A stretch of 51,091 nucleotides of DNA from assembly GCA_007693785.1 (NCBI GenBank), contig RECY01000016.1:1-51091 (forward strand), written 5' to 3'. Shown here in pieces: positions 16,973-49,165 of the stretch (position 1 is the stretch's first letter; each line of letters begins with the position of its first letter). A program made the translations under genes and the position numbers. The notes beneath the pieces were generated by a model, which was not told where the DNA came from, made no database searches, and saw nothing but the letters and a program-made list of their open reading frames with translations. Source of the DNA: Phycisphaerales bacterium. GTDB lineage: Bacteria > Planctomycetota > Phycisphaerae > Phycisphaerales > UBA1924.

Positions 16973-19462
16973 ATGCCGCTTCGCTACAAAAATCGTCTTC
17001 TCTCGTTGCTCGCGCACGACGCGTACGAGCCCAGCACGGTGCCTCAGCTGGCCGAGCAGCTCCGCGCCGACGAGCCGGAGAAGCTCGCCGAGGCCGTGCG
17101 CCAGCTCGTGGAAGCAAAGGTGGTCGCGGTCGACCCCCGCGGGCTGGTGCGTCTGCCGAGCTACGCGGACCTGGGGACCGAGGAGCTCGTGGGCGAGTTC
17201 CGCTCCACAACGCGCGGGTTCGGGTTTGTCGTGCCGGAGGTCAAGGTCCGCGAGGGGGACCTGTTCATCCCGGAGCGCGAGACCGGCGGTGCGATGCACG
17301 GGGACACCGTCCGCGTGGAGTTCTGGCCCGAGCGCGGGCGCGGGCCCAAGGGCGAGCAACGCTTTGCGGCCCGGGTGGTCGAGGTGCTCCTTCGCCGTCG
17401 GGCCGCGGTCACCGGCACGCTCTTCAAGCGTGACGGGAAGTGGTACGTCGCGCCGGACGGCAAGGACTTCCAGGAACCCGTCGTGGTGCGTGACGCCGAG
17501 AGCAAGAACGCGAAAGAAGGGCTGAAGGTCGCGCTGGAACTGCTGGAGTTCCCGCAGGCCGGGCAGCTCGGCGAGGGCGTGATCACCAAGGTGCTGGGCG
17601 AGGCGGGCCGCCCGGACGTGGAGACGCAGGCGGTCATCGAGGCGCACGGGCTGCCGAGCAACGAGTTCCCGGAGGCGTGCGTCGAGCAGGCGCGGAAGCT
17701 GACGCGGCAGTTCGAGGCCGACATCGAGCGGTTCGAGCGTGAGGGCCCGGGCGCGCTCGACGGGCGGCTCGACCTGACCGACCTCTTCCCCGACCACCCG
17801 GACAGCCAGCCGGAGTTCATCACCACGATCGACCCGCCGGACGCGAAGGACTACGACGACGCGATCCACATCCGCAAGACTAAGGACGGGTGGGAGTTGG
17901 GCGTCCACATCGCCGACGTTGGCTACTTCATCGACCCCGGCACGGCGCTGGACGTCGACGGCAAGGACCGCGGCAACAGCGTCTACCTGCCACGCCACGT
18001 CATCCCGATGCTGCCGGAGGTGCTCAGCAACGGCATCTGCTCGCTGCAGGAGGGCGTGTGCCGCTTCGCGAAGAGCGCGTTCATGCGGTACGACCGAGAG
18101 GGGAACCTCAAGGCGTCCGGCGTCGCGAGCACGGTCATCAAGAGCGCGAAGCGCATGACCTACCTCGAAGCCCAGGCCCTGATCGACGGCGACCAGGAAG
18201 AAGCACGGAAGCACGCCAAGACCGACACGCCCTACACCGAGCAGCTCATCGCGGCGGTGCGCGAGATGAACGCGCTCGCCCGCATGATCCGCGCCCGGCG
18301 ACAGAAGCAGGGCATGATCACGCTCGACCTGCCGGAGGTGGAGCTGATCTTCGACGAGGACGGCAAGGTCGTCGACGCGGAGCGCGAGGACGACGCGTAC
18401 ACGCACAAGATCATCGAGATGTTCATGGTCGAGGCGAACGAGGTGCTCGCACGCCTGTTCGAGAACATGGACGTGCCGCTCCTGCGCCGCACGCACGCGG
18501 ACCCGACCCCGGGCGATCAGGACAACCTCCGCCGGGCCGCGATGGTCGCCGGGTTCCGCATCCCCGCGAGCCCCTCGCGCGAGGAGATGCAGTCGCTCCT
18601 GGACGCGACCGCCGGCACGCCCGCGGCCCGCGCCGTCCACATGGCCGTCCTCCGCACGCTCAGCAAGGCCTCCTACTCACCCGCGCTCATCGGGCACTTC
18701 GCCCTCGCGAGCGAGGCCTACGCCCACTTCACCAGCCCCATCCGGCGCTACCCGGACCTCACCGTCCACCGCGCGCTCGGCGCCTATCTCCGCGAGACCG
18801 ACAACGGCAAGAAGCGCCCGCGCCCCGACGACGAGAAGGCCCTGCGCAACCTCGGGATCAAGCTGCTCGAATCCGGCGCCTGCCCCTCGCAGGAGGAGCT
18901 GGTCGAGATCGGGCGTCACTGCTCCAAGACCGAGGAACGCGCGACGGCCGCGGAGCGCGAGCTGCGCCAGTTCCTCGTGCTGCAGTTGCTTGAGACCAAG
19001 ATCGGCGAGAGCTTCAGCGCGGTGGTGACGGGCGTGACGCCGCGGGGCGTGTTCGTGCAGATCGACAAGTACCTCGCCGACGGGCTGATCCTGAAAGAGG
19101 ACCTGCCCGGGGACACGAGCCGCGGGAACCAGACGCCCAAGTGGAGCGTGGACCGGCGCACGGGCGCGCTGGTGGACGAGCACTCGGGGCGCAGCTTCAA
19201 CATGGGCGACAGCGTCACGGTGCGGATCAGCGACGTGGACCTGTCGCGCCGCCAGATGAACGTGGTGGTGGACGACCCGGACAGCCGGGCGGCCGGCAAG
19301 GCGAAGACGCCCAAGATCAAGCTCGGCGAGGAGGGCGGCGGGCTCGCCCCGGCCGAGAAGGGCGCGGGCTTCAAGTCCATGACCGGCTCGGAACGGCGCA
19401 GCGCCAAGAGCAAGCGCCGCGACAAGGGCAAGACCGACTACCGGCGCGACAAAAAGAAATAA
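16973..19462 (+). CDS. rnr: Ribonuclease R
   Basis: RNase R is a 3'-5' processive exoribonuclease that degrades structured RNA. The 829-residue product has the N-terminal winged-helix part, two cold-shock (OB) domains (TTRGFGFVVPEVK onwards), the RNB catalytic domain with TTIDPPDAKDYDDAIHI (the Asp cluster that binds Mg) and HFTSPIRRYPDLTVHRALGA, then an S1 domain (GVTPRGVFVQIDKYLADGLI) and a Lys/Arg-rich tail ending KTDYRRDKKK. The S1 domain contains a short insertion (SVDRRTGALVDEHSG), as seen in planctomycetes. ATG at 16973 lies in an SD-poor context. Confidence 0.95.
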   Translation: MPLRYKNRLLSLLAHDAYEPSTVPQLAEQLRADEPEKLAEAVRQLVEAKVVAVDPRGLVRLPSYADLGTEELVGEFRSTTRGFGFVVPEVKVREGDLFIPERETGGAMHGDTVRVEFWPERGRGPKGEQRFAARVVEVLLRRRAAVTGTLFKRDGKWYVAPDGKDFQEPVVVRDAESKNAKEGLKVALELLEFPQAGQLGEGVITKVLGEAGRPDVETQAVIEAHGLPSNEFPEACVEQARKLTRQFEADIERFEREGPGALDGRLDLTDLFPDHPDSQPEFITTIDPPDAKDYDDAIHIRKTKDGWELGVHIADVGYFIDPGTALDVDGKDRGNSVYLPRHVIPMLPEVLSNGICSLQEGVCRFAKSAFMRYDREGNLKASGVASTVIKSAKRMTYLEAQALIDGDQEEARKHAKTDTPYTEQLIAAVREMNALARMIRARRQKQGMITLDLPEVELIFDEDGKVVDAEREDDAYTHKIIEMFMVEANEVLARLFENMDVPLLRRTHADPTPGDQDNLRRAAMVAGFRIPASPSREEMQSLLDATAGTPAARAVHMAVLRTLSKASYSPALIGHFALASEAYAHFTSPIRRYPDLTVHRALGAYLRETDNGKKRPRPDDEKALRNLGIKLLESGACPSQEELVEIGRHCSKTEERATAAERELRQFLVLQLLETKIGESFSAVVTGVTPRGVFVQIDKYLADGLILKEDLPGDTSRGNQTPKWSVDRRTGALVDEHSGRSFNMGDSVTVRISDVDLSRRQMNVVVDDPDSRAAGKAKTPKIKLGEEGGGLAPAEKGAGFKSMTGSERRSAKSKRRDKGKTDYRRDKKK

Positions 19463-19471
19463 CCCGCGGCC

Positions 19472-20455
19472 TCACCGCCCGATCGCCCTCCACGGAAAGC
19501 CCGGCGGGATCAATTCCGGACGGTCGTTGAGCCAGCCGGTGAGCCACTCGAAGGCGTCGATCAGGCGCGGGCCGGGGCGGTTGAACATCTGGTTGCCGTC
19601 GACGACCGCCACCTTGCCCGCACGCACCGCGGGCAAGGCCCTGAACCACGCGTTGCGCATCAGGCGTTCGAGTTCAGCGTCGGCCTGCCCGAGCGTGAGC
19701 CCGCAGGGGGCGATGACGATCGCGCCCGGCTGCGTGCGCACGAAGTCGTCGATCTCGACGCGCCGGCTCTTGCCCGCCACCCGTTCGGCCATCATCGGGC
19801 CGGCCGCCGCGCCGCTCGTCGCCTTCGGCACCCCCTCGTTCAGCGGGTGACGACCACCCGCCCGCTCGATCATCTGCACGATCCAGTGGCCCGCGACGAA
19901 CAAAGGGTCCGTCCACTCCAGCCACCCCACCACCGGTCCCTCGGCGTACGGGTTCACGTATTCCTGCGCCCGGAACAGTCGCCCGCGCAGCTCGACCACC
20001 TTCGACCCGGCGGCCTCCTTCAAGCCAACCGCCTCACCGATCGTCAGCAGGTCGTCCAGCACGCCCTCGAGCGTCGTCGGGTTGAGGCTGACGACGAGCG
20101 GGCTCGGGCTCAACTCACTCGCGACGCGTCGGACGGTCGCCAAGTCGATCGAGCAGACTTCGCAGAGGTCCTGGGTGAGGATGACGTCCGGGTGCAATGC
20201 CCGGAGCCCGTCGGCGTTGAGCTCGTACAGGCTTTCACCGGTCTGGAAGGCCTCGCGGACCTGGCGATCGATGTCGGCGCTGGGGGCCGGGGCGTCGGGG
20301 TCGTAGGCCGTGCGGGCCGATGTGAGCACGGGCAGGTGCCCGATGTCACCCGGGAAGTCGCACTCGTGGCTTCGCCCGACGAGCCGATCGCGCCCGCCGA
20401 TGGCGGCAAGGGCCTCGGTCGCGGAGGGGAGCAGGCTGACGACACGTGGCGGCAT
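19472..20455 (-). CDS. BtuF-like cobalamin/iron-binding protein without signal peptide
   Basis: The sequence matches class III periplasmic binding proteins of the B12 group: RVVSLLPSATEALAAIG at the N-terminus, LVGRSHECDFP, LHPDVILTQDLCEVCSI and PGPRLIDAFEWL at the end. The two lobes joined by a long helix are the BtuF/FecB fold. No signal peptide or lipobox is present from either ATG (20455 or 20491), so the protein is predicted cytoplasmic; family members of this type without a signal are known in bacteria and plants. ATG at 20455 gives the family start and has GGAG 12 bases before. It converges on rnr. Confidence 0.8.
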   Translation of the reverse strand: MPPRVVSLLPSATEALAAIGGRDRLVGRSHECDFPGDIGHLPVLTSARTAYDPDAPAPSADIDRQVREAFQTGESLYELNADGLRALHPDVILTQDLCEVCSIDLATVRRVASELSPSPLVVSLNPTTLEGVLDDLLTIGEAVGLKEAAGSKVVELRGRLFRAQEYVNPYAEGPVVGWLEWTDPLFVAGHWIVQMIERAGGRHPLNEGVPKATSGAAAGPMMAERVAGKSRRVEIDDFVRTQPGAIVIAPCGLTLGQADAELERLMRNAWFRALPAVRAGKVAVVDGNQMFNRPGPRLIDAFEWLTGWLNDRPELIPPGFPWRAIGR

Positions 20456-20585
20456 GGCGGTTGTGAGCTCCGTCGTGTTGGGGGCGGGCATGGCGGTGTG
20501 GGGCGGCGGCTTGCTGGCGATGAAGCCGCCGGTTCGCCGAGCGGTACACGGCGTGGTAGCCTACGTGCCCTGGAGGATGCCGACT

Positions 20586-23210
20586 GTGCCGAGTCAACAG
20601 CCCGTCTTGTGGTCCGGAGTGTTCGCCCGCCTGGGGCGGCACGGGCCGTTCGCGTCTCTCGCGTTCGTGGCGGGGGCGCTGCTGCTCGCGTGCGGGCCCG
20701 CGTCGGCTCAGGACGCGCCCGCGCCGGACGGCGAGCCGCCCGTGATCGGCGAGAACGGGGAGGGCGAGGGCGAGGACGTTCTGGCGATCGACGCGTTCGC
20801 CGAGGCGGTGCAGCTGCGGACGCTGGTGGACCTGTTTTCCGCGTTTCTCGGGATCGAGGTGATCCTGCGGGGCGAGCTGGAGGGCGAGGTGAGCTTCGCC
20901 AACCCTCGGGAGGTTCGGCGTTCGGGCGTGCTGCCGCTCTTGGAATCGCTGCTGGAGCTGAACGACTACGCGCTGACCTACGACCAGCCGACGGGGTTCT
21001 ACGTGATCCAGCGGGCCGGCGAGGTGCGCCTGAGCTTCGAGGGCGAGTTCGCGACCACGCGGGTGATCGCGACGCCGAACGTGCGCCCCTCGGGGCTGCA
21101 AGCGACGCTCCAGAACGTGCTGGGGCAAACCGGTCAGGCCCAGGGCGGAGACGGGATCGCGTACATCGACGAGCTGGGCGTGATCCTGGTGACGGGCTCC
21201 CCGCGACGGGTCCGCAACATCGAGCGGATCGTCGGGCAGCTCGTGCAGGAGCGTCGCCAGTCGCGGTACATTCAGATCCCGCTTCGCTTCGTCTCGGCCC
21301 CCACGGCTCGGGACCGAGCGATCGAGCTGGTGAGCGGACGTTCGCAGCGCCAGGCGCAGCTCCCCGTCGGGCAGCCGCGCGGGCAGGCGGCTCAGGAGAC
21401 AGCCCGCCCCCAGACGGGCGACACGTTCGACAACCTCGCCGACCGACTCGGGATCGCCCCTCAGGGCAACGCGCTGATCTTCCGAGGGCGGGACGAGGAG
21501 ATCGAACAGGTGCAGGCGGCGATCGACCTGATCGACCAGCCGAGCATGCTCCAGAACAAGCGGTACGAGGTCGGGCGTGCGGCTCAGCAGATCTCGGACA
21601 TCGCGCGCCAGCGGGGGCTGGGCGAGGTGATCGTCCTGACGCCGCAGGATCAGCAGCAGCCCAACCAATTCAACCAGTTCCGCCAGTTCGCCCAGCAAGG
21701 TGGGCAGAACCCGTTCCAGCAGCCGCAGGACGCGGTCGTCGCGGGCGGCAGCAGCATGGTCGTGGACGTGGAAACGGGCACGGTGATCTACTTCGCGACC
21801 AGCGAGCAGCACGCGGAATTCGAGAAGCTGATCGCGGAGCTCGAGATCGAGCGGGACGCGGTGATCACGCGGACGTACAAGCTCGCGCACGCGAACGCCG
21901 AGGAGGTCACCGAGATCATCCTCGCGCTGATCGAGGACGGGACGCAGACGGGCAACCAGGGCTTCCTGCCGACCTTCGGCGGGCAAGCGGGGCAGGCGTT
22001 GTTCACCCCGCGTTTCGACGGGGCCGGCGCGCCGGGCGAGCTCGGCGCGCTCCGCGCCAACCGCGACACCCGCGTCGTCTCGGACCTGGCGAACAACCAG
22101 ATTATCGTCCGCGCACGCGAGCGCGAGCAGGAAGACTTCGGACGCCTGATCGAACGCCTGGACCTTCGGCGCCCGCAGGTCTACATCGAAGCGACGATCG
22201 TCAGCGTCACCAACAACATGGACTTCCGCCTCGCGATCGAGACCCAGCTCATCAACGCCGGGGGCTCCGGCGGCGCGGCACAGACCAACTTCGGGCTCAC
22301 CCAGGCCGGCGACGGCTTCACCTCCCCGCGCACGCCCGTGCCCACCCTGACCGGGCTCACCACCGCGCTGATCCAGAGCCAGTACCTCCCGTTCGTCCTC
22401 AACGCGATCCAGACCGACACCGACGCGCGGATCATCTCCAGCCCAAGCCTGCTCGTGGACGACAACTCCGAAGCCGAGATCGTCAGCCTCGATCAGCAAC
22501 CCACCACCAGCACCAGCCAGGACGGCACCAGCACCCAGACCTCCTTCGGCGGCTTCGAAGACGCCGGCACACGCCTCACCGTCACGCCCCGCATCAGCGA
22601 GGGCGGCTACCTCCAGCTCACCTACGGCATCGAGCTCAGCAACTTCTTGGGGCAGGGCTCCAACGGCATCCCCGCCCCGCGCCAGGAACGCAACATCCGC
22701 TCCGACTCGGTCACCATCCCGGGCGACACCACCATCGTCGTCGGCGGCATCCGCATCAACGACGTCCGCGAGACCGTCGTCAAGGTCCCGTTCATCGGCG
22801 AGATCCCGATCCTCGGGCACCTCTTCCGCGACACGCGCGAGGTCGCCAACGACGCGATGCTCTACGTCTTCATCCGCCCGCGCATCATGCGGGACGACAC
22901 CTTCCGCGACCTGCGCCTGATGACCGAGGGCCCGCAGGCGTCGGTCGGCCTCCCGGCGGACCTCCCGCTCATCCAGCCCGTGAGCATCGACGTGATCAGC
23001 GCCCGCCCGTTCCGGCAGCCGGGCGCGCCCGAGCCGTCGCCCCGGTCCCCCGCCGCCGAGCCTCCCCCCGGGAGCACAACGGAGGGCGACCGCCCCGCGA
23101 CGCCCACGCCGGGGCTTGAGCCGGGCGCGGTCCGACGCCTCCCGCCCCCGCCTGACCGCGACGACGAAGACCACGATCGCGACGCCGCGCGCGGGCCCAA
23201 CGGGAGCTGA
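20586..23210 (+). CDS. gspD: Type II secretion secretin GspD
   Basis: GspD forms the outer-membrane secretin ring. The 874-residue product has a signal peptide (FVAGALLLACGPASA), an N0-like domain (LRTLVDLFSAFLGIEVILRG), several N1/N2-like repeats (TRVIATPNVRPSGLQATLQN and the region around RTYKLAHANAEEVTEIILAL) and the secretin core with VPFIGEIPILGHLFRDTREV and MLYVFIRPRIM. Low-complexity Gln/Gly loops (NQFNQFRQFAQQGGQ) enlarge the linkers. GTG at 20586 lies 8 bases after GGAGG; an ATG at 20577 sits directly on it. The stop overlaps the gspE start. Confidence 0.93.
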   Translation: MPSQQPVLWSGVFARLGRHGPFASLAFVAGALLLACGPASAQDAPAPDGEPPVIGENGEGEGEDVLAIDAFAEAVQLRTLVDLFSAFLGIEVILRGELEGEVSFANPREVRRSGVLPLLESLLELNDYALTYDQPTGFYVIQRAGEVRLSFEGEFATTRVIATPNVRPSGLQATLQNVLGQTGQAQGGDGIAYIDELGVILVTGSPRRVRNIERIVGQLVQERRQSRYIQIPLRFVSAPTARDRAIELVSGRSQRQAQLPVGQPRGQAAQETARPQTGDTFDNLADRLGIAPQGNALIFRGRDEEIEQVQAAIDLIDQPSMLQNKRYEVGRAAQQISDIARQRGLGEVIVLTPQDQQQPNQFNQFRQFAQQGGQNPFQQPQDAVVAGGSSMVVDVETGTVIYFATSEQHAEFEKLIAELEIERDAVITRTYKLAHANAEEVTEIILALIEDGTQTGNQGFLPTFGGQAGQALFTPRFDGAGAPGELGALRANRDTRVVSDLANNQIIVRAREREQEDFGRLIERLDLRRPQVYIEATIVSVTNNMDFRLAIETQLINAGGSGGAAQTNFGLTQAGDGFTSPRTPVPTLTGLTTALIQSQYLPFVLNAIQTDTDARIISSPSLLVDDNSEAEIVSLDQQPTTSTSQDGTSTQTSFGGFEDAGTRLTVTPRISEGGYLQLTYGIELSNFLGQGSNGIPAPRQERNIRSDSVTIPGDTTIVVGGIRINDVRETVVKVPFIGEIPILGHLFRDTREVANDAMLYVFIRPRIMRDDTFRDLRLMTEGPQASVGLPADLPLIQPVSIDVISARPFRQPGAPEPSPRSPAAEPPPGSTTEGDRPATPTPGLEPGAVRRLPPPPDRDDEDHDRDAARGPNGS

Positions 23211-25018
23211 TGCCGACGATGCCCCCGAGCGATCACCAGCCCACACCCGACGCGCGCCCCAGCGGCTCATCCGCCCCCGGCGCCCCCCGCAAGCCCGGCG
23301 GCCGAGCCCCTCTGCGCGGGCTGCTCCGTCGCGACTCAGGCTCGGCACTCGCCCTCGCCGAGCAAGAACGCACCGACTTCCTCGCCGTCGCACGCGCCTT
23401 CGGGGAGCTCGGGCTCTCCGCCGAGGCCGCCCGCGCCTTCCAGCGTGCCCCCGGCTCCGACGAAGAGCCCTGGGACGTCGCCCTTCAGCTCCTCGGGATC
23501 GACGAGCAACAGGCCCTGACCCGCCTCGCCCAGCGGACCGGGCTGCTCTTCGACCCGGAACCGCGACTCGAAGACTCCGCCAGCCGCTTCTATGAGCTCA
23601 TCCCGCCCGACACCGCCCGCGTCCATCACCTCGGCGGCGTCTCCAGCGATGGGCACACGATGACCGTCGCGACCGCCCAGCCGCTCCAGGCCCCGGTCTT
23701 TAGCCAGATCGAGGACCGGCTCGACATGCCGGTGCGCCTGGTCCTCGCGCCGCGGGCGGCCGTCGCGAACCTCATCAACCGCGGGTACGAGCAGCGCGGC
23801 GATCTGGTCACCGAGATCATCGAAGAGATGCCGCTGGACGAGTCGGCGATCGAGTCGGCCGCCGCCGGGCTCCGCGGTGGGACCGACCTGCTCGCCCTCG
23901 CGCGACAGACGCCGGTCATCCGACTGGTCAACATGATCCTCTTCGAGGCGCTCCGGCGTCGCGCCAGCGACGTGCACGTCCACCCGCAGGAGGACCGGCT
24001 CTCGATCCGCTACCGCGTCGACGGGATGCTGGTCGAGGCGTTCACGCCGCCGATCAGCCTCGCGCCCGCGATCGCGAGCCGCCTCAAGGTCATGACCGAG
24101 CTGGACATCGCCAACCGGCACAGCCCGCAGGACGGGCAGACCTCGGTCCGCATCGGGCAGCGCAAGATCGACATCCGCCTGAGCACCATCCCCACCGTCT
24201 TCGGCGAGCGCGTCGTCCTCCGCCTGCTCGACCAGAGCCAGACCGAGCTCGACCTCGACCACGTCGGCATGGGCAAAGCCATGCAGGCCGAGCTGATGGA
24301 CATCGTCGACCGCCCCAACGGCATGGTGCTCGTCACCGGGCCGACCGGCTCCGGCAAGACGACGACGCTGTACGCCGCCCTCGGACGCATCGACCGCGGC
24401 TCGCGCAACGTCATGACCATCGAGGACCCGGTCGAGTACCACCTCTCCGGCATCAGCCAGATGCAGGTCAACCCCAAGCGGGGCGTCACCTTCGCGACCG
24501 GCCTCCGCGCCCTGCTCCGCCAGGACCCCGACGTCATCCTCGTCGGCGAGATCCGCGACCAGGAGACCGCGCAGCTCGCGATCCAGGCCTCGCTCACCGG
24601 GCACCTCGTCCTCGGCACGCTGCACACCAACGACGCGCCGAGCGCGATCCCGCGCCTGGTCGACATCGGCGTGGAGCCGTACCTGATCACCAGCAGCCTG
24701 CTGGCCGTCCTCGCCCAGCGCCTCGTGCGCCGGACGTGCGCCGCCTGCGCCGGCGCGGGCACGGTCGATCGCCCCGGGGCCAGCGAACGCCCGCGCTGCG
24801 AGGCCTGCCTGGGCACCGGCTACAAGGGCCGCCTGGCGGTCTACGAGATCATGCGGATGACCGACCGCCTGCGCCGCCTGACCGGCGAGCGAGCCGACGG
24901 CGTCACGCTCTACGAGGCCGCGGTCGAAGAGGGCTTCATCCCGATGCGCCACGACGCGATGGCGAAGGCCGAGCAGGGCAAGACGGACCAGGCCGAGGTC
25001 TACCGCGTCCTGCACTGA
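23210..25018 (+). CDS. gspE: Type II secretion ATPase GspE
   Basis: GspE powers pseudopilus assembly. The 602-residue product has the N1E-type domain (about 40-230), then the RecA-like ATPase: Walker A GPTGSGKTTT, the Asp box with MTIEDPVEY, Walker B ILVGEIRDQETAQ and the His box TGHLVLGTLHTNDA. A zinc finger (CAACAGAG...CEACLGTG, two CxxC pairs) lies before the C-terminal helices. The start overlaps the gspD stop (TGATG), so translation is coupled. No GspF, pseudopilin or GspL-M genes follow here. Confidence 0.95.
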   Translation: MPTMPPSDHQPTPDARPSGSSAPGAPRKPGGRAPLRGLLRRDSGSALALAEQERTDFLAVARAFGELGLSAEAARAFQRAPGSDEEPWDVALQLLGIDEQQALTRLAQRTGLLFDPEPRLEDSASRFYELIPPDTARVHHLGGVSSDGHTMTVATAQPLQAPVFSQIEDRLDMPVRLVLAPRAAVANLINRGYEQRGDLVTEIIEEMPLDESAIESAAAGLRGGTDLLALARQTPVIRLVNMILFEALRRRASDVHVHPQEDRLSIRYRVDGMLVEAFTPPISLAPAIASRLKVMTELDIANRHSPQDGQTSVRIGQRKIDIRLSTIPTVFGERVVLRLLDQSQTELDLDHVGMGKAMQAELMDIVDRPNGMVLVTGPTGSGKTTTLYAALGRIDRGSRNVMTIEDPVEYHLSGISQMQVNPKRGVTFATGLRALLRQDPDVILVGEIRDQETAQLAIQASLTGHLVLGTLHTNDAPSAIPRLVDIGVEPYLITSSLLAVLAQRLVRRTCAACAGAGTVDRPGASERPRCEACLGTGYKGRLAVYEIMRMTDRLRRLTGERADGVTLYEAAVEEGFIPMRHDAMAKAEQGKTDQAEVYRVLH

Positions 25019-41749: not shown

Positions 41750-43771
41750 TCAGGCCCCAGGCAGGTGCTGATCAATCCAGTCATCCTGACGAAGCACGCC
41801 CGCGCGCCCCGCCCGCGCACGCGCCTCGGCCCGACGCTGCGCCGATCCCAGCACCGCGAGCGCCCGCCGATCACCGGTCAGCTCCTCCGACGAACCGCCC
41901 GAAGCGAGCCGCGCCAGCCCCGGCGCGTACTGACGCACCAGCTCGTCCTCCAGGCTCGCGAACGTCTGGCTCGAGCCCGGGTCGCCCTGCCGCCCGGCCC
42001 GCCCGATGAACTGCCGATCGATCCGACGCGCCGCGTGGAGCTCGGTCAGGATCACGTGCAGCCCGCCGGCCGCGAGCGCCGACGCGTCCGGCTTGATATC
42101 CGTCCCGCGACCGGCCATGTTCGTGGCGACCGTGATCGCCCCCGCGCAACCCGCGTCCGTGATCATCTCGGCCTCGTCCGCGTCGAAGTTCGCGTTCAGC
42201 ACCCGGTGCGTCAGCCCGCGAGCGCTGAGCCGCTCGCTCAGCGCCTCGCTCGACGCGATCGATCGCGTCCCGACGAGGATCGGGCGCCCCGCCAAGTGCT
42301 CACGCTCGATGCTCTCGACCACCGCCGCCCACTTGCCCGCTTCGGTGCGGAACACCCTCGTCGCCCGCTTCTCGCGGATCACCGGGCGGTGCGTCGGCAC
42401 GACCACCACCGGGCGGCCGTACACCGCTTCGATCTCCCCCGTCGCGTCGGCCGCCGTGCCCGTCATGCCGCAGAGGAAGCGGTAGGTCCTGAAAAACCGC
42501 TGAAAACTGATCCGCGCGATCGTCTCCCGGTCGGCCGTCACCTCCACGCCTTCCTTCGCCTCCACCGACTGGTGCAGCCCGTGCTCCCACTGACGATCCG
42601 CCAGAAACCGCCCCGTGAACTCGTCCACGATTACCACGCGCCCGTCGATGATCTCGTACTGCTGCCCGCGCTTGTAACAATGCCGCGCCACCAGCGCCTG
42701 GCGGATCAGTTCCTCCGCCCGGCGTGTCGCCTTCCACAACGGATCCCCGCCCGCCCGCAACGCCTCCGCAAACATCTGCGCACACCGGTGCTCGCCCCGG
42801 CGCTTCAGCACCGCGCGACGCTTGACGTGCTCGATCGCGTAGTCCGGCCCCTCGTCCAGCTTCGACGCCATCCGCGCCGCCTCGGCATACACCGGCGCCA
42901 GCTCGTCCGCCCCGCGGCTCCGCGCGATGATCAGCGGCACCACGCCCTCGTCGATCAGCACCGCGTCCGCCTCGTCCACCAACGCCGCGCGCAGCCCCGG
43001 CACGATCGGCCCGCCGCCAGAGCCAGGCCCCGAAGACGCACCGAGCCCAAGCACCGAGCCCTGCCGCGCCGCCCACGCGCTCCCCGCCGGGCCGAGGCGC
43101 AGCTGATCCCGCAGATAGTCGGCCGTGATCTGCTTCGGCGTCCCAAACACCACCGGCATCGCGTACACGCCCGCTCGCTCGCCCTGCCCCGTCTCCTGCG
43201 TGATCGCCCCGACGCGGAGCCCGCACCGCTCAAAGATCCCGCGCCGGCTCTCGGCGTCGCGGGCCGCGAGATAGTCGTTCACCGTGAACACATGCAGACG
43301 CCGGTGCCGCCACGCCAGCAGCGGCGCGACCACCGAGCCCGTCAGCGTCTTGCCCTCGCCGGTCAGCATCTCCGCCACGCGCCCGTGGTAGAGCGCCAGC
43401 GCCCCCACGAGCTGCACAACGTACGCCTCCTCGCCCGTCTCCCGGCGCGCCACCTCGCGCACGACCGCCAGCCCGCGCCGCACCGTCTCCGCGTCGTGAC
43501 GCCCGCGACGGAACGCCTCGCGCACCTCGCGCACGCGCTCGCCGAGCGCCGCCTCGCCGCACGCGCGGATCTCAGGCGCGAGCGCGTCCACCCGCGCCGC
43601 CTCCCGCAGCAGCCACTTCGGCGCCCGGCGCGCCCGCTCCAGACGCACCAGGCCCCGGTACCACAGCCGGTCCAACCCCTTGCGGTAGGCCGGCTTGGTG
43701 CGGCGCGTCCGCACGGCCTCGTACAACGCGTTGTACCGCGTCACCGCCTGCCCCGTCGCGCCCGCGCTCAC
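41750..43771 (-). CDS. Short SecA paralog lacking the helical scaffold
   Basis: The 673-residue protein has all SecA motor motifs: Walker A LTGEGKT (137-142), VTVNDYLAARD, Walker B VDEADAVLIDE (265-275), IVDEFTGR, the GMTGTA loop (435-440), VLNANFDADEAEMI, NMAGRGTDIKP and IGRAGRQGDPGSSQ with FASLEDEL (605-611). The cross-linking region is short (about 90 residues). After SLEDEL only about 60 residues remain, so most of the helical scaffold, including the two-helix finger, and the C-terminal zinc finger are absent (canonical SecA is about 850-900). The GTG start at 43771 overlaps the previous stop by 4 bp. It is an accessory, not housekeeping, SecA; partner unknown. Confidence 0.9.
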   Translation of the reverse strand: MSAGATGQAVTRYNALYEAVRTRRTKPAYRKGLDRLWYRGLVRLERARRAPKWLLREAARVDALAPEIRACGEAALGERVREVREAFRRGRHDAETVRRGLAVVREVARRETGEEAYVVQLVGALALYHGRVAEMLTGEGKTLTGSVVAPLLAWRHRRLHVFTVNDYLAARDAESRRGIFERCGLRVGAITQETGQGERAGVYAMPVVFGTPKQITADYLRDQLRLGPAGSAWAARQGSVLGLGASSGPGSGGGPIVPGLRAALVDEADAVLIDEGVVPLIIARSRGADELAPVYAEAARMASKLDEGPDYAIEHVKRRAVLKRRGEHRCAQMFAEALRAGGDPLWKATRRAEELIRQALVARHCYKRGQQYEIIDGRVVIVDEFTGRFLADRQWEHGLHQSVEAKEGVEVTADRETIARISFQRFFRTYRFLCGMTGTAADATGEIEAVYGRPVVVVPTHRPVIREKRATRVFRTEAGKWAAVVESIEREHLAGRPILVGTRSIASSEALSERLSARGLTHRVLNANFDADEAEMITDAGCAGAITVATNMAGRGTDIKPDASALAAGGLHVILTELHAARRIDRQFIGRAGRQGDPGSSQTFASLEDELVRQYAPGLARLASGGSSEELTGDRRALAVLGSAQRRAEARARAGRAGVLRQDDWIDQHLPGA

Positions 43772-45939
43772 AGCTCGATCCGCCCCTGCACCAGCTTGTG
43801 CAGACGATCTCTCCACTGCCACAGCAGCGGGCGACGCGGGAGCGTGAACCGCAGCGTCACACGCTCACCCGGCTGCCCCGCCCACGCCTCCCCGTTCACC
43901 GCCTCGTAGCTCGCGACACGCATCACGAACTGCGGGTCCCGCGCGAGCAGGCCCGAGCGATCGTCCGGGCGGTTCTCGAAACGCCCCCCGCCCGCGAAGG
44001 TCATCGACGCGTGCGGCAGCCTCGCCTGCGCCGCCGGGAGCACCGTCACCCCCTCGCCCCGGAGCACCATCGACGGACGCGACCACGGGCGAATCTCGAC
44101 CTTGTATCCCTCGTCGCCAAGATCGAAGTGCCACGCCGCCTCGTCCTGCGTCAGCACAGCCGCGATCCGCGTCGATCCGGGGTCCACGATCTCGCACACC
44201 CCGCGCCCGCGGGGGATGAACGCCCCGACCAGCATCGCCGGATCGCCCCCGACCACCACGCCGTCCGCCGGAGCGCGCACGACCAGCTTCTCCACCCGCT
44301 CTTCCAGCGTCCGCACCTGCTCGCGCAGCGCCGCCACGCGCTCGAACGCGACTTGGCCGGCCGACGGGCTGCTCTGCTCCGCGACCCGCGCCCGCGCCTC
44401 CGCCTCCGCGACCCGCGCCTGGGTTTCGGCCAGCTCCAAAACCAGCTCCGGGCTCCGCCCGGTCAGGATCGGATCCCCCGCGCGCACGCATTGCCCCGGG
44501 CGGACGTGCGCCTCGACCACGAACGCGTCCACCTCCGTGAACACCCCCGTCCGCACCAGGCTCTCGATCACGCCCGACGCCTTCCGCCGATCCGGCATCG
44601 GCACCGCGCCGATCAGCAGCACCCCGGCCGCGACCATCGCGAGCGTCGTCGCGATCACCGTCCCGCGTTTCTCGGCGACCTGAGGCCCCGCCGCCATCCA
44701 GTGCACCAGCTTGCCGACCGGCAGCACGAACCACATCACCCCGGTCCAGATCGCCAGCAGCAGCCCGATCACGAACAGCTTGCCCATCACATACAGCGTG
44801 ATCGTGATAAACAAGAAGAGGCGGTACGCGAACGCCAGCACGCCGTAGACGTAAAGAATCGCACGCTCGCCCTGGAGCGTCGTCGGCGCCTGGGTCTGCT
44901 CCAGGCGGTAGACGTGCTTCTGGAAGAAGTGCTTGAGCTGGTTGTTGGACCGCTGCATGAGGTTCGGCACCTCGAGCAGGTCGCTCAGGATGTAGTACCC
45001 GTCGAACCGCATCAGCGGGTTGGCGTTGAACAGCACCGTCGAGACGCTCGCGGTCAGCAGCATGTTGTACGCGACCTGGTGCACCAGCCCGCCGGAGTTC
45101 ATCGTCTGCACCCAGACAATCGCCGCGATCGCCGCCAGGAACAGCTCGAAGATCATCCCCCCCGCGCCGACCGAGATCCGTCGCCACTTGCTGTCCATCG
45201 CCCAGGCCGACGACGCGTCGACGTAGGGCGCCGGGAACAGCACCAGCAGCATGAACCCGAACTCGGGCACCTGCCCGCCGAAGCGTTTGCAGATCACCCC
45301 GTGCCCCGTCTCGTGCACCGCCTTCGCGACCACGAAGACCACGATCAGCCAGCCCCAGTTGCTGGGCGACAGCGCGCTCTCGAACCCGCCGATCAGCCGA
45401 TCCACATGCGGCACCAGCTGCCACAACGCCCACGCGACAAACAGCGCCCACACGATCAGCCCCGCCCGGTTCAGCACCGGGCGCAGGATCGGCTCCAGCC
45501 ACGTCAGGATCCGGTCCGGGTTGAACAGGCGCATCCGGAAGTACATCAGCCCGATCGCCTGCTGCACCGCCTTCTTCTTCTTCCGCTCGCGCCCGCGGCG
45601 CAGGAGCTGCTCGGTCTCCGGGCTCGCGTCGGCCGAGATCAGGTTCGACTGATACAGCTGGCTCAGCAGCTGGATCACCTCCGGCTGCGTCGGCGCCTCG
45701 TCGCCGTGGTTCGCCAGGACGATCTTCCACGCCTCCTCGACCGTGCGCGCGCCGTCAAGCAGCCCGACCAGCGCGTGCGCCACCGGGCTCAGGCGGAAGA
45801 ACTGGTTCGTCGCCGGGTCGTGCACGACGTGCCAACGGCGCCCGCGGTAGTGCTGACGCGTCACCTGCACGTGCGGCCGCAGACGCGCCCGCAGCGAGCG
45901 GACACGGTGCCAGAACGGGCTGAACGTGGGTCGATCCAT
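43768..45939 (-). CDS. PqqD-like / M50 site-2 protease / HlyD fusion protein
   Basis: The 723-residue protein combines three parts. Residues about 25-105 resemble PqqD or an RRE (FFRLSPVAHALVGLLDGART, VEEAWKIV). Residues about 155-440 are a polytopic M50 protease with HETGH (209-213) and the third-ligand motif NANPLMRFDG (305-314). Residues about 455-723 form an HlyD-type adaptor (VDAFVVEAHVRPGQCVRAGD, coiled coil, VVRAPADGVVVGGDP). The layout matches YydH-like putative peptide zinc metalloproteases. It could bind, cut or export a peptide, but none is encoded here. No ribosome site precedes ATG at 45939; a repeat hairpin does. The stop overlaps the SecA-like start. Confidence 0.88.
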   Translation of the reverse strand: MDRPTFSPFWHRVRSLRARLRPHVQVTRQHYRGRRWHVVHDPATNQFFRLSPVAHALVGLLDGARTVEEAWKIVLANHGDEAPTQPEVIQLLSQLYQSNLISADASPETEQLLRRGRERKKKKAVQQAIGLMYFRMRLFNPDRILTWLEPILRPVLNRAGLIVWALFVAWALWQLVPHVDRLIGGFESALSPSNWGWLIVVFVVAKAVHETGHGVICKRFGGQVPEFGFMLLVLFPAPYVDASSAWAMDSKWRRISVGAGGMIFELFLAAIAAIVWVQTMNSGGLVHQVAYNMLLTASVSTVLFNANPLMRFDGYYILSDLLEVPNLMQRSNNQLKHFFQKHVYRLEQTQAPTTLQGERAILYVYGVLAFAYRLFLFITITLYVMGKLFVIGLLLAIWTGVMWFVLPVGKLVHWMAAGPQVAEKRGTVIATTLAMVAAGVLLIGAVPMPDRRKASGVIESLVRTGVFTEVDAFVVEAHVRPGQCVRAGDPILTGRSPELVLELAETQARVAEAEARARVAEQSSPSAGQVAFERVAALREQVRTLEERVEKLVVRAPADGVVVGGDPAMLVGAFIPRGRGVCEIVDPGSTRIAAVLTQDEAAWHFDLGDEGYKVEIRPWSRPSMVLRGEGVTVLPAAQARLPHASMTFAGGGRFENRPDDRSGLLARDPQFVMRVASYEAVNGEAWAGQPGERVTLRFTLPRRPLLWQWRDRLHKLVQGRIEL

Positions 45940-45944
45940 GGGGG

Positions 45945-46101
45945 AAGGCACTAGGGACTAGGCATTGGGCACTAGCCGGATGGTGCTGCGAACGCTCCTG
46001 AACAATCAAATCAACCTAGAAAAACACACCAAACCCGGCACAGAGCCCTCATGCCCAATCCCCTCTCCTCCTAGTGCCTAGTGCCCAATGCCTAGTGCCT
46101 T
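45945..46101. repeat. Inverted pair of heptamer-repeat arms
   Basis: The 164-bp gap between the GAF-HlyD and M50 genes is bounded by two arms made of 7-base units. The right arm (46071-46101) reads CTAGTGC, CTAGTGC, CCAATGC, CTAGTGC, CTT. The left arm (45945-45975), reversed, reads CTAGTGC, CCAATGC, CTAGTCC, CTAGTGC, CTT. They share a 19-base block and can form a long stem around about 95 bases. The left arm lies 5 bases upstream of the M50 ATG and the right arm 2 bases after the GAF-HlyD stop. Between the arms the sequence is AT-richer with no gene. Such a stem may control expression or mark a small mobile repeat. Confidence 0.75.
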
Positions 46102-46103
46102 CC

Positions 46104-48143
46104 TCACCACCACAGCCACAGGCGCAGCGTGTCCACGACACGCCGGGCGCCGATCTCCGCCAGCGTGCGCTCGCCCGTGTCGAGCTTGCACAGCCCTTCC
46201 ATGCCGGGGCGCATCCACGCCGCCGAGCCGTCGAGCGTCGCGTGCACCTCAAACGTGTTCCCACCCTCGCTCGGCGTCGCCAACGGCACCACACGCTCCA
46301 CCGTCATCGGGAACCGCCGCCCCGGATACGCCTTCGTCGCGACGCTCCCCGACTGGCCCAGCGACACCAGCCCGATGTCCCGGTCGTCCACCCGCGCCAC
46401 AACCCGCATCTGGTCCAGCGGCGCGATCTCAAAGAGCGCCTGCCCGAGTTCCACCGCGCTCCCACGTACGTCCCGCACGTCCCCCGCGAGGATCGTCCCC
46501 GCGATCGGCGCGCGCACGGTCGCGTCCTCGATCCGCTGCTCCAAGAGCGCCAACCGCGCCCGCGACTGCTCCGCCCGCGCGTCGGCCTGCTGCGCCTCGC
46601 CCAGCTTCCGCTCGCGCGACGCCTGGTCCCGCTCGGTCTCGGCCGTCCGCAGCTGCGCCCGCGTGTCGATCGCCTGCAGGCGCAGCTCCGTTGTGTCCAG
46701 CACCAGCAGCACGTCCCCCGCCTCGACGAGCGCCCCCGCCTCGATCCCCTCGGGCACCTCGGAAATAATCCCGCTGAACGGCACGCTCACGGTCCGCCGC
46801 TCGATCGGGCGCAGCTCCACCGGCGCCTCGATCCGGTACTCCGCCTTCACCACCAGTATCGCCGTCACCAGCGCGATCGCCGCGACGCCCAGCAGCTTCC
46901 ACGCCGTATGGCGCGGCCCCACCGCCCACGCCCCCGTCGCCAGCGCCGAATCCCATCCGCGCAGCGCCACGTTCCGGTCATCGCTCCGCCGAATCCGCAA
47001 CACCGGCGCGACCAGGTCCATCACCGCCTGCAACAGCTCCACAAGATTCGCGTCGAGCGCCGGCCCCTGACGAGCCCCCGCACCCGCGCTCGCACCCGAC
47101 GCCCCGCCGCCGAGCTCCACCGTCAGCACGCCGACCACGTCCTCCCCCGCCCGCAGCGGCACGCTCGCGACCCGCAGCTGCGCGTCGCCCGACGCCAGCG
47201 CCTTGTGCGCGTGCACCACCGCCTGGCTCAGCAGCACATCCGCCGGCTCGCCCGTGCCCGACCCGCTCACATCCTCCGACCCAGCCGACCCCGTGTCCCG
47301 CTCCGGCGGCGGGGGATACAGCACCGCCTGCTCCTGGTCCAGGCACTCGTCCATCGCCGCCTCGAGCCCGCGCACCATCGCCATGCGTCGATCCACGTGC
47401 TCGGTGTCGCTCAGCGCGACGAGCTTCACCCGCTCGCCCTCGCCGCGACGCCCGAGCCCGTGCGTCCAGCCGAGCGCGACGCGGTCGAGCTGCAACTGTC
47501 GCATCAGGTCGTTCGCGGCCTGCATCGCCGCGCCCTTGAACGTCGGCGCGTTGTTGATCGACGCGATCAGCCGGGCCGCCAGGTCGAGCGCCGCCCCCGC
47601 CGAGCGGAGGCGCCCGAGCTGTTGATGGGCCGCGTGCGTGTGGACATAGCCCGCGAGCACCTCAACGAGCGCCAGCGTCGCGCTCAGCGCCTGCGGGCTC
47701 CGCGCGTCGAGCGCCAGCACCACGACCGGCACCGGCCCGCCCGCGCCCGACCCGCCGAACCCGATCGGCAGCCCCACCAGGTACCCGCTCGGCCCGCTCG
47801 TGTAGTACGCCGCCCCGCCCCCCTCGCCATCCTCCACACCGAAGACGCGCGACGCACCCCGCTCGGCCGCCGAACGCGCGGCCGACAGCGTGTCGCGATC
47901 CGCCGCCACGCCCGACGCCCCGGGCTCGGTCGGCCACGCGAACACCGCACGCGGCTCCGCCACCACGCCCTCGCCCGAACCCGCCGGCACGACCACCAGC
48001 GTCGCCCGACGCGCCCCCGACACCTGCCCCAGCACCGACGCCAACCGACGCAGGAACGACATGTCGTCCCCCGCCGGTCGCGCCAGCTCCGCGACCACAC
48101 GCCCCCACTCCGGCGTCTTCAGCTTCGACGACACGTCGTTCAA
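46104..48143 (-). CDS. GAF-like domain / membrane helix / HlyD adaptor fusion
   Basis: The first 370 residues contain two GAF-like modules: about 28-170, FLRRLASVLGQVSGARRATL; and about 185-345, LIASINNAPTFKGAAMQAAN with VASVPLRAGEDVVGVLTVEL. One membrane helix follows (about 413-433, AWKLLGVAAIALVTAILVVK). The rest is an HlyD-type adaptor with lipoyl halves (VPFSGIISEVPEGIEAGALV; VRAPIAGTILAGDVRD) and a coiled coil between. The order suggests a cytoplasmic sensor joined across the membrane to a periplasmic adaptor. TTG at 48143 overlaps the previous stop as TTGA; GTG at 48134 is the alternative. Length 679 residues. It is followed by the heptamer repeats and the M50 gene. Confidence 0.85.
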   Translation of the reverse strand: MNDVSSKLKTPEWGRVVAELARPAGDDMSFLRRLASVLGQVSGARRATLVVVPAGSGEGVVAEPRAVFAWPTEPGASGVAADRDTLSAARSAAERGASRVFGVEDGEGGGAAYYTSGPSGYLVGLPIGFGGSGAGGPVPVVVLALDARSPQALSATLALVEVLAGYVHTHAAHQQLGRLRSAGAALDLAARLIASINNAPTFKGAAMQAANDLMRQLQLDRVALGWTHGLGRRGEGERVKLVALSDTEHVDRRMAMVRGLEAAMDECLDQEQAVLYPPPPERDTGSAGSEDVSGSGTGEPADVLLSQAVVHAHKALASGDAQLRVASVPLRAGEDVVGVLTVELGGGASGASAGAGARQGPALDANLVELLQAVMDLVAPVLRIRRSDDRNVALRGWDSALATGAWAVGPRHTAWKLLGVAAIALVTAILVVKAEYRIEAPVELRPIERRTVSVPFSGIISEVPEGIEAGALVEAGDVLLVLDTTELRLQAIDTRAQLRTAETERDQASRERKLGEAQQADARAEQSRARLALLEQRIEDATVRAPIAGTILAGDVRDVRGSAVELGQALFEIAPLDQMRVVARVDDRDIGLVSLGQSGSVATKAYPGRRFPMTVERVVPLATPSEGGNTFEVHATLDGSAAWMRPGMEGLCKLDTGERTLAEIGARRVVDTLRLWLWW

Positions 48144-49165
48144 CGCCCGCCCCCAGCGCCCGAGCCGACCTCACGATCCGCGAGCCCCAGCGCCGAGTGC
48201 ATATCCCCCGAAGGCTCCGTGAACCGCACCCACACCCGCAGCCCCGGCGGCAGACCTTCCGGGTTCTCAACCTCCACCCGCACACGACGGCTCCGGCTCG
48301 CGTAATCCGCCACCGGGCTCACCTCGATGATCCGACCCTCCAGCACCCCGCGACGCTCCGGCGAATCCACAAGCACCCACGCCGAATCACCCGCCGACAG
48401 ACCCAGGCGGATCGTGTCGGCCGCCGGTGCCGGCACGTCGATCCACAACGGATCGATCGAGACCACACGCACCGCCGGCTGCGCCCGGTCGATCGAACGA
48501 CCCAGCTCCACGCCCACCTCTTCCACGATCCCGTCGAACGGCGCCACGATCCGGAGCTGCTCCAGCAACGCCTCCGCCTGCTCCAGACGCACCCGCTCCA
48601 GGTCCTGATTCAGCTTCGCGCTCTCGACGTCGATCCGGGCCGTCTCCATGGACAGGCGCGAACGGTCCAGCTCAAACTGGCTCCCACCCCCGCGGTCGAA
48701 CGCCTCCAGCGTGCTCTCGAACTCCACCACCGTCAGGTCCGCCGCCTTCTGCGCCCGCTCGACCTGCAACGCGCTCTCGGCCCGCAAACGCGTCTGCTTC
48801 ACGATCGCGATCTGCTCCGCGTCGTTCCCGCGGATCAGCAGCTGCCCCTGCGACACGAGCTCCCCGCCCCGGACCAAGATCTCCACCACGCTCGTCGGCG
48901 CGTTGAAGCCCATGACCGAATCGCGGCTCGGCTTGGTAAACGTCTGCACGCCCTCGAACGGCCGGGCCCACGCGCTCCCGTCCGGGTCGAACCGCGCCCG
49001 CTCGTCGGAGCCGAGCCCGGGCTGACCGCTCGCGATCGGTGACATCGCCGCCAGCCCGCACGCCGCGAGAGCCATCGCCCCCGCCGCCACGGCCGACCAC
49101 CGACGAACCCCCGGAGCCCGAACGCCCCGCCCGCTTGCTGTCTGTGTGCGCATCATCCCGATCAT
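48140..49165 (-). CDS. HlyD/RND-type periplasmic adaptor protein
   Basis: The 341-residue protein starts with a signal sequence (SAVAAGAMALAACGLAAMSP). It is an adaptor of the HlyD/MFP type: barrel-sandwich halves VVEILVRGGELVSQGQLLIR and LRIVAPFDGIVEEVGVELGR, a long coiled coil (about 110-195) between them, and beta-barrel parts (DSAWVLVDSPERRGVLEGRI). It would bridge inner-membrane parts to the outer membrane. It is the first gene of the minus-strand cluster; the next gene overlaps by 4 bp. ATG at 49165 (MIG) or 49156 (MMRT) is possible. Upstream lie a small palindrome and a repeat element. Confidence 0.85.
   Translation of the reverse strand: MIGMMRTQTASGRGVRAPGVRRWSAVAAGAMALAACGLAAMSPIASGQPGLGSDERARFDPDGSAWARPFEGVQTFTKPSRDSVMGFNAPTSVVEILVRGGELVSQGQLLIRGNDAEQIAIVKQTRLRAESALQVERAQKAADLTVVEFESTLEAFDRGGGSQFELDRSRLSMETARIDVESAKLNQDLERVRLEQAEALLEQLRIVAPFDGIVEEVGVELGRSIDRAQPAVRVVSIDPLWIDVPAPAADTIRLGLSAGDSAWVLVDSPERRGVLEGRIIEVSPVADYASRSRRVRVEVENPEGLPPGLRVWVRFTEPSGDMHSALGLADREVGSGAGGGR

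Follow-up and report, generated by a model that had tools for sequence, protein, structure and literature searches.

The stretch of 51,091 nucleotides analysed here (contig RECY01000016.1 of assembly GCA_007693785.1, C35 in our numbering; in the following the whole stretch is called the window) belongs to a Phycisphaerales genome of 3.06 Mb in 45 contigs. On its minus strand it contains a cluster of four genes coding for a HlyD-type adaptor, a GAF–HlyD fusion (GAFH), a PqqD–M50–HlyD fusion (M50H) and a shortened SecA-like ATPase (SecAx). This cluster is probably an export machine for giant surface proteins with a short common N-terminal tag. Its features are (aa, amino acids):

41750–49165, minus strand: four-gene cluster in the order HlyD adaptor, GAFH, M50H, SecAx
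48140–49165, minus strand: HlyD-type periplasmic adaptor P0004, 341 aa (HlyD_3 2e-14, HlyD_D23 2e-14)
46104–48143, minus strand: GAF–transmembrane–HlyD fusion P0003 (GAFH), 679 aa (HlyD_3 8.7e-18)
45952–46103, no strand: spacer of 152 bp between GAFH and M50H, read from the sequence
43768–45951, minus strand: PqqD–M50 intramembrane protease–HlyD fusion P0002 (M50H), 727 aa (Pfam domains)
45637–45831, minus strand: PqqD-like domain of M50H, residues 41–105, candidate leader reader (Pfam PqqD above cut-off)
45301–45315, minus strand: HExxH zinc motif of M50H, HETGH, residues 213–217 (sequence and alignment)
41750–43822, minus strand: SecA-like ATPase P0001 (SecAx), without the C-terminal wing/finger region (SecA_DEAD, PPXD, P-loop)
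43346–43360, minus strand: Walker A motif GEGKT of SecAx, residues 155–159 (invariant in 24 SecAx sequences)

The original prediction, made from the letters of the window, had put four minus-strand genes in this order and place, with 4-bp overlaps at the first and last junctions, a short SecA-like ATPase and no pump, TolC or permease beside them. Domains, motifs and relatives agree with the arrangement, and the overlaps are exact (TTGA at 48140–48143 between P0004 and P0003, GTGA at 43768–43771 between M50H and SecAx). Since the GTGA overlap requires GTG 43771, SecAx more likely starts there (673 aa) than at the first GTG of the open reading frame (ORF) at 43822; the low model confidence of residues 1–26 agrees with this start. 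A single N-terminal hydrophobic segment is present in P0004 (residues 23–45), and the hydrophobic segment of GAFH comprises residues 412–438. The GAF domain of the latter reaches 23.5 bits (8.4e-5) at a Pfam cut-off of 22.4. Near the ends of the spacer inverted copies of a GGCACTAGGCATTGGGCACTAG-like sequence are found, resembling a small mobile or repeat element. A tRNA-Ser (gga) called by ARAGORN at 44893–44984 on the plus strand lies opposite to the conserved M50H gene and is probably false. The cluster is flanked by genes for CinA and a DegT-type aminotransferase. An ATP binding cassette (ABC) transporter, TolC or a permease was found neither in 20 larger ORFs of the window (Pfam, E ≤ 1e-5) nor in the two flanking genes, as had been predicted; for the ABC exporter this holds for the cluster and these 22 other genes, the genome elsewhere not having been searched for one.

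In M50H the matches are PqqD (2.3e-7, above the cut-off), M50 (7.3e-6) and HlyD_3 (6.5e-7), the Peptidase_M50 score of 25.9 being slightly under the Pfam cut-off of 27.2. The motifs HETGH from residue 213 and NPLMRFDG from residue 311 are intact, as in the site-2 protease fold, and H213, E214, H217, N311 and D317 are invariant among 28 M50H sequences. In the predicted model (predicted local distance difference test, pLDDT, 86.7) residues 195–389 match RseP (Z 10.4–10.6) and residues about 448–717 match adaptors such as MacA/AcrA (Z about 15). By structure comparison residues 12–108 match GdmN chains (Z 10.3). A chance arrangement of the genes is excluded because relatives conserve both M50H (52 % identity in three genomes of the same family) and SecAx (63–64 %).

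SecAx matches the Pfam domains SecA_DEAD (5.7e-78), PPXD and P-loop; SecA_SW gave no match to P0001 in the Pfam scan. Its motifs GEGKT, DEAD, GMTGTA, TNMAGRGTDI and QFIGRAGRQGD are intact, and besides Walker A the residues D283, E284, R608 and R611 are invariant in the 24 relatives. The alignment to SecA of B. subtilis covers only residues 23–605, and the SecAx model (pLDDT 83.8) matches the substrate-engaged SecA 6itc_A with Z 41.5 and a root-mean-square deviation of 3.0 over 588 residues (SecA 14–611). According to this model, clamp and motor domains are both retained; SecAx ends at SecA residues 605–611, past which we take the wing and the two-helix finger to lie, and these are missing. The ATPase is thus as short as predicted. 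An additional SecA with intact ATPase motifs is also typical of the SecA2 accessory systems, and the identity to SecA2 of C. difficile and M. tuberculosis is 37–38 % in structure alignment. However, SecAx is without everything past SecA residue ~611, the scaffold, wing and finger included, and its neighbours are HlyD and M50 proteins; SecY2/Asp genes were not seen among them, no search being aimed at these genes. P0001 is 33 % identical to the long SecA of its own genome and 33–64 % to other SecAx sequences. Three SecA_DEAD genes exist in this genome, and the long SecA frame (contig C4, L044, 1484 aa) has two separate SecA_DEAD matches. A rearranged canonical SecA has been described for planctomycetes (PMC4452313).

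Secondary SecA_DEAD proteins with GAF-HlyD, M50-HlyD and HlyD neighbours were already reported from several phyla in 2015 (Kamneva, Poudel and Ward 2015; PMC4452313). The published locus comprises a SecA_DEAD protein with no or fragmentary SecA_SW, GAF-HlyD, M50-HlyD and HlyD/biotin_lipoyl proteins and, occasionally, an OEP neighbour. The window likewise has a second SecA_DEAD protein without SecA_SW next to GAF-HlyD, M50-HlyD and HlyD and is a new member of this module. In the same paper SecA_DEAD was proposed as the ATPase and M50 as the pore, together replacing the ABC pump; cargo and role were left open, and its main sections name no cargo (PMC4452313). The terms LEPR, PqqD, DUF3467, DUF4347 and 'giant' are absent from the main text (PMC4452313). 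Furthermore, no paper that connects SecAx or M50H with proteins of the LEPR-XLL or DUF4347 kind was found in the open-licence literature (preprints not covered), nor did an experiment on the mechanism turn up there; the links to LEPR, PqqD and DUF3467 are added in the present analysis.

Of 294 planctomycete genomes 67 have M50H (E < 1e-29). Scanning named genomes yielded at least 554 M50H relatives; the best 80 were used as loci, each with flanks of up to 10 kb, several loci being clipped by contig ends. Among these 80, SecAx was found in 73 (five of the matches scoring <200 bits), GAF-HlyD in 74 and HlyD in 56. In a tree of 139 M50H proteins the window falls inside a planctomycete set of 12 rows, all SecAx-linked, with a support of 100, and SecAx is present in the stretches of 112 of the 139. 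DUF3467, a small protein, was detected in 29 of 121 fetched stretches, mostly immediately before GAF-HlyD; it was not found in the window cluster. Its interpretation as a SecB-like chaperone was dropped, the profile having no convincing match to a solved structure (best E 0.16). A second cluster in the same genome (contig C28, L043, C28:86001–106000) consists of DUF3467, GAF-HlyD, M50H and SecAx, and no HlyD gene was detected in this region. With these data the original prediction can be placed. The gene order, whose conservation across planctomycetes had been named as a check, is kept far beyond them. The system was called undescribed, which is not correct as the locus and the idea of SecA and M50 in place of a pump have been in print since 2015 (PMC4452313). 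That the SecA-like motor and the M50 protein stand in for pump and TolC is close to that proposal as regards the pump; the outer channel is probably not truly missing, because TolC occurs in operons of relatives and OEP/TolC homologues are encoded elsewhere in the genome, outside the cluster.

Annotated plasmids show the module in operons headed by a giant gene, followed by DUF3467, GAF-HlyD, M50H, SecAx, HlyD and sometimes TolC. Thirteen plasmid regions around M50H were inspected, and DUF3467 precedes the adaptor genes in six operons (L235, L236, L237, L239, L243 and L245). In Pontibrevibacter a 31.8-kb LEPR-XLL gene shares a 4-bp overlap with DUF3467, which is followed by GAF-HlyD, M50H, SecAx and HlyD; in Methylosinus TolC is added to this order. 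The order in Mesorhizobium is a 31.6-kb giant, DUF3467, HlyD, GAF-HlyD, M50H and SecAx, and the giant gene of Pseudosulfitobacter measures 38 kb. The Thalassospira operon comprises LEPR, DUF3467, GAF-HlyD, M50H, HlyD and TolC, with no SecAx in the stretch. Of nine annotated giants whose starts were read seven possess the leader, five of these not being called LEPR by the annotators; for the M50H type proper the leader was found in five of six giants, the exception being that of Alisedimentitalea. Three compact operons, of Azospirillum, Kosakonia and E. coli, are free of SecAx: the Kosakonia giant starts with LEPRMLFDGA, and LESRQLFDGA stands at residue 18 of the E. coli giant. The E. coli operon, on a plasmid from feces of a healthy person (L258, 695–18073), encodes a 3,668-aa Ig-like giant, TolC, two adaptors and M50-HlyD; SecAx is not annotated in it. 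Plasmids of Escherichia (18) and Citrobacter (8) encode similar M50-HlyD proteins. As a possible earlier report of this operon the IncHI Ig-like protein RSP (PMC6764697) was considered, and it was not equated with it: according to the abstract RSP exits through a type IV system, and neither TolC nor HlyD occurs in the text (PMC6764697). In the operons read the usual partner of the leader is thus the M50-HlyD protein; SecAx is common yet not universal.

Several large, almost Cys-free neighbours of M50H have a common N-terminal motif, which is named LEPR-XLL in NCBIfam (NF012209). Judged by their sequences, giants with such an 'xExLEPRxLLSAD' leader and without a hydrophobic signal peptide are a strong cargo candidate, and their link to the cluster is well supported by genomics. 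Alignment of 26 leaders resulted in xxxExLEPRLLLSADx, in which E4, L6, E7 and R9 are invariant; past D15 no residue has a majority. Not one of 45 leaders, whose start codons were set by rule, has a 14-residue stretch with a mean hydropathy >1.6, and the median net charge ahead of the motif is +6. It is unlikely that the giants cross via SecYEG, with the leader serving as an unusual Sec signal, SecAx helping as an accessory motor of the SecA2 type and M50H, HlyD and TolC acting in a later step only. Such a route is suggested by the clamp and the two motor domains retained in SecAx, with the match to 6itc_A, as well as by the M50H-like operons free of SecAx, where the canonical SecA could serve; yet SecAx stops at SecA residue 605–611, ahead of the presumed wing and finger, and a hydrophobic core is absent from all 45 leaders.

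Matches to LEPR (E ≤ 0.01) were obtained in 27 of the 294 planctomycete genomes, 26 of which also have M50H (p 5e-18), and all 15 families with LEPR contain an M50H genome; a weakness of this statistic is that kinship is accounted for by the family count only, and at this threshold per genome about three chance matches are expected in 294 genomes. In the sole LEPR genome without M50H (G165) the match is internal, at residue 679 of a 952-aa frame, and probably false. Part of the custom leader model A3 derives from planctomycete matches, so that its result there (25/26) is circular and gives no independent support. From the 80 named loci 50 non-planctomycete genomes were chosen as an outside sample (omitted were L134, L141, L145, L151, L192 and L197 and, to keep to a size limit, L196, L198 and L201). 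LEPR was found in 43 of them at E ≤ 0.05 and in 42 at E ≤ 0.01. At E ≤ 0.0065 there are 67 matches in 42 genomes; the median frame has 4198 aa, the longest 14,390 aa, and 34 of the 67 frames have ≥4000 aa. A distance of ≤10 kb from M50H was found for 28 of the 67 (25 genomes), 26 of these 28 being on the strand of M50H. In 143 genomes sampled from the class of one further genome (G315, itself included), 13 have LEPR (E ≤ 0.01), 19 M50H (E ≤ 1e-40) and 11 both; LEPR is present in 10 of 11 genomes with strong M50H (E < 1e-180) and in one of eight with weaker M50H, the p values for this sample being 4e-12 and 6e-10. The weaker group is no clean negative control, as a variant leader may be in use in these genomes and the two M50H pieces of G437 may be a single strong M50H split by contig ends.

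A strict regular expression for the leader, which was based on leaders of planctomycetes and fixed ahead of viewing the 80 named loci, matched seven of 1199 neighbouring ORFs (permuted mean 0.32, maximum 3, 50 permutations) and one at the C-termini. Looser expressions were chosen after the neighbours had been viewed; by such a post hoc expression the leader is present in 10 of 12 same-strand cargo-like ORFs that start inside the locus. DUF4347 was also considered as the single cargo marker and was found in 19 genomes (13 with M50H). All nine genomes with strong DUF4347 (E < 1e-20) have M50H, in six of them ≤10 kb from the match, and by regular expression the leader itself was seen in six of the nine as well. 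Because of this overlap, and because LEPR is found in more genomes (27) than DUF4347, the leader serves better as a marker. Two relatives of the same order (G220 and G242) have 18 and 10 LEPR-XLL matches per genome; a single machine may therefore handle many cargos.

PqqD-like domains act on peptides, and the PqqD and M50 part of M50H (residues 23–409) matches the model NF041824 of daptide/YydH proteases, which mature ribosomally synthesized and post-translationally modified peptides (1.3e-51). Together with the GAF domain, which suggests sensing, this could point to the export of a small molecule or a peptide, or to a sensing or proteolysis module, with the LEPR giants as mere neighbours in genomes rich in surface proteins. 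This is quite improbable: a large surface proteome does not explain the co-occurrence in separate samples, the adjacency on the same strand and the 4-bp overlap between giant and DUF3467. In addition, M50H has a fused HlyD domain, which distinguishes it from the daptide proteases, and the partner genes in relatives are giants; an assignment to daptide maturation was rejected at a score of 175.9 bits against a cut-off of 300. Of the original prediction of an export or peptide-processing machine the export role fits, whereas PqqD is, because of this low score, more likely meant for giant leader proteins than for modified peptides.

HlyD adaptors, TolC in some operons of relatives and a large, repeat-rich, Cys-poor cargo are shared with type I systems (HlyB-HlyD-TolC), and there is a likeness to ABC exporters with a leader-peptidase part. 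The HlyD-type membrane fusion protein of such systems is well represented, HlyD domains being found in three of the four proteins. The cluster differs from them by the lack of an ABC protein, the SecA-type motor, the M50 protease and the N-terminal leader. Membership in canonical type I secretion was rejected, the ABC gene being present in neither the cluster nor the annotated operons. A type I system whose ABC transporter is encoded elsewhere, with SecAx as a cytoplasmic unfoldase or chaperone, is very improbable, since the common signal is an N-terminal and not a C-terminal leader and none of the annotated plasmid operons has an ABC gene, with the restriction of incomplete gene tables and of separate ABC genes further along in some regions.

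For the preferred reading, an export machine for leader-bearing giants, the following course is proposed. The cargo would carry a short, mostly basic N-terminus followed by the 'xExLEPRxLLSAD' leader in place of a hydrophobic Sec signal, and the PqqD-like domain of M50H would receive this leader at the inner membrane. SecAx, a putative clamp-and-DEAD motor without the part engaging SecYEG, would feed the unfolded chain by ATP hydrolysis into a passage formed or gated by M50H. M50H may also cut the leader; in some ABC exporters leaders are removed by a peptidase part. Across the periplasm the HlyD domain of M50H, GAF-HlyD and the free HlyD would together build a conduit leading to a TolC-type channel, whose gene belongs to the operon in some relatives and presumably lies elsewhere in the own genome here. 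Observed directly are the gene linkage, the motifs and the properties of the leader. The role of PqqD is the weakest link of this mechanism because the E. coli relative has no PqqD match at E ≤ 0.01.

Apart from kinship in the LEPR statistics, several observations weigh against this reading. The missing PqqD match in E. coli makes PqqD doubtful as a universal reader, and leader-bearing giants also occur in operons free of SecAx (Thalassospira, Kosakonia and E. coli); SecAx is thus absent from some operons and perhaps not the sole motor. The giants of Alisedimentitalea and Azospirillum have no leader at the annotated start. LEPR gave no match in 41 of the 67 planctomycete M50H genomes, the model being short (24 positions) and insensitive, nor in seven of the 50 outside genomes. 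The similar motif Planc_extracel (PF07595) was rejected as a cargo marker, M50H being present in only 11 of 23 genomes. In the window no leader protein was found with the LEPR model, the A3 model or the regular expression, the sole match of the latter (18680–19471) resembling a shadow frame. Two leader proteins exist in the own genome, both on contigs other than that of the window (C12 and C28), one of them about 40 kb from the second cluster. The C12 protein, a 2112-aa frame with LENRVLLSA, straddles the cut-off of 17 (20.9 bits in the genome search, 15.7 in hmmscan). The C28 protein has LEALEPRIVLS followed by a CAP domain; it was found with the A3 model (E 0.009) and was not matched by NF012209 at E ≤ 0.01. 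As a separate feature, the window encodes a secretin and then a T2SSE ATPase at 20310–25015 on the plus strand, that is, a type II secretion or pilus-type system.

On balance, the data slightly favour a separate class of secretion systems, spread over about a dozen phyla of bacteria and also plasmid-borne, composed of a stripped SecA motor and a HlyD-bearing intramembrane protease, with a non-hydrophobic N-terminal leader (LEPR-XLL, including DUF4347 giants), a cargo of up to about 14,000 residues and a SecA-free core on enterobacterial plasmids. The locus of 2015 had neither substrate nor function, and the leader-bearing giants now supply a cargo candidate. If they are the cargo, a single leader motif accounts for the exit of some very large predicted bacterial proteins that lack the usual Sec signal. 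A SecA motor would then act apart from its usual SecYEG contacts, and cargo would be predictable in many genomes from a motif of 24 residues.

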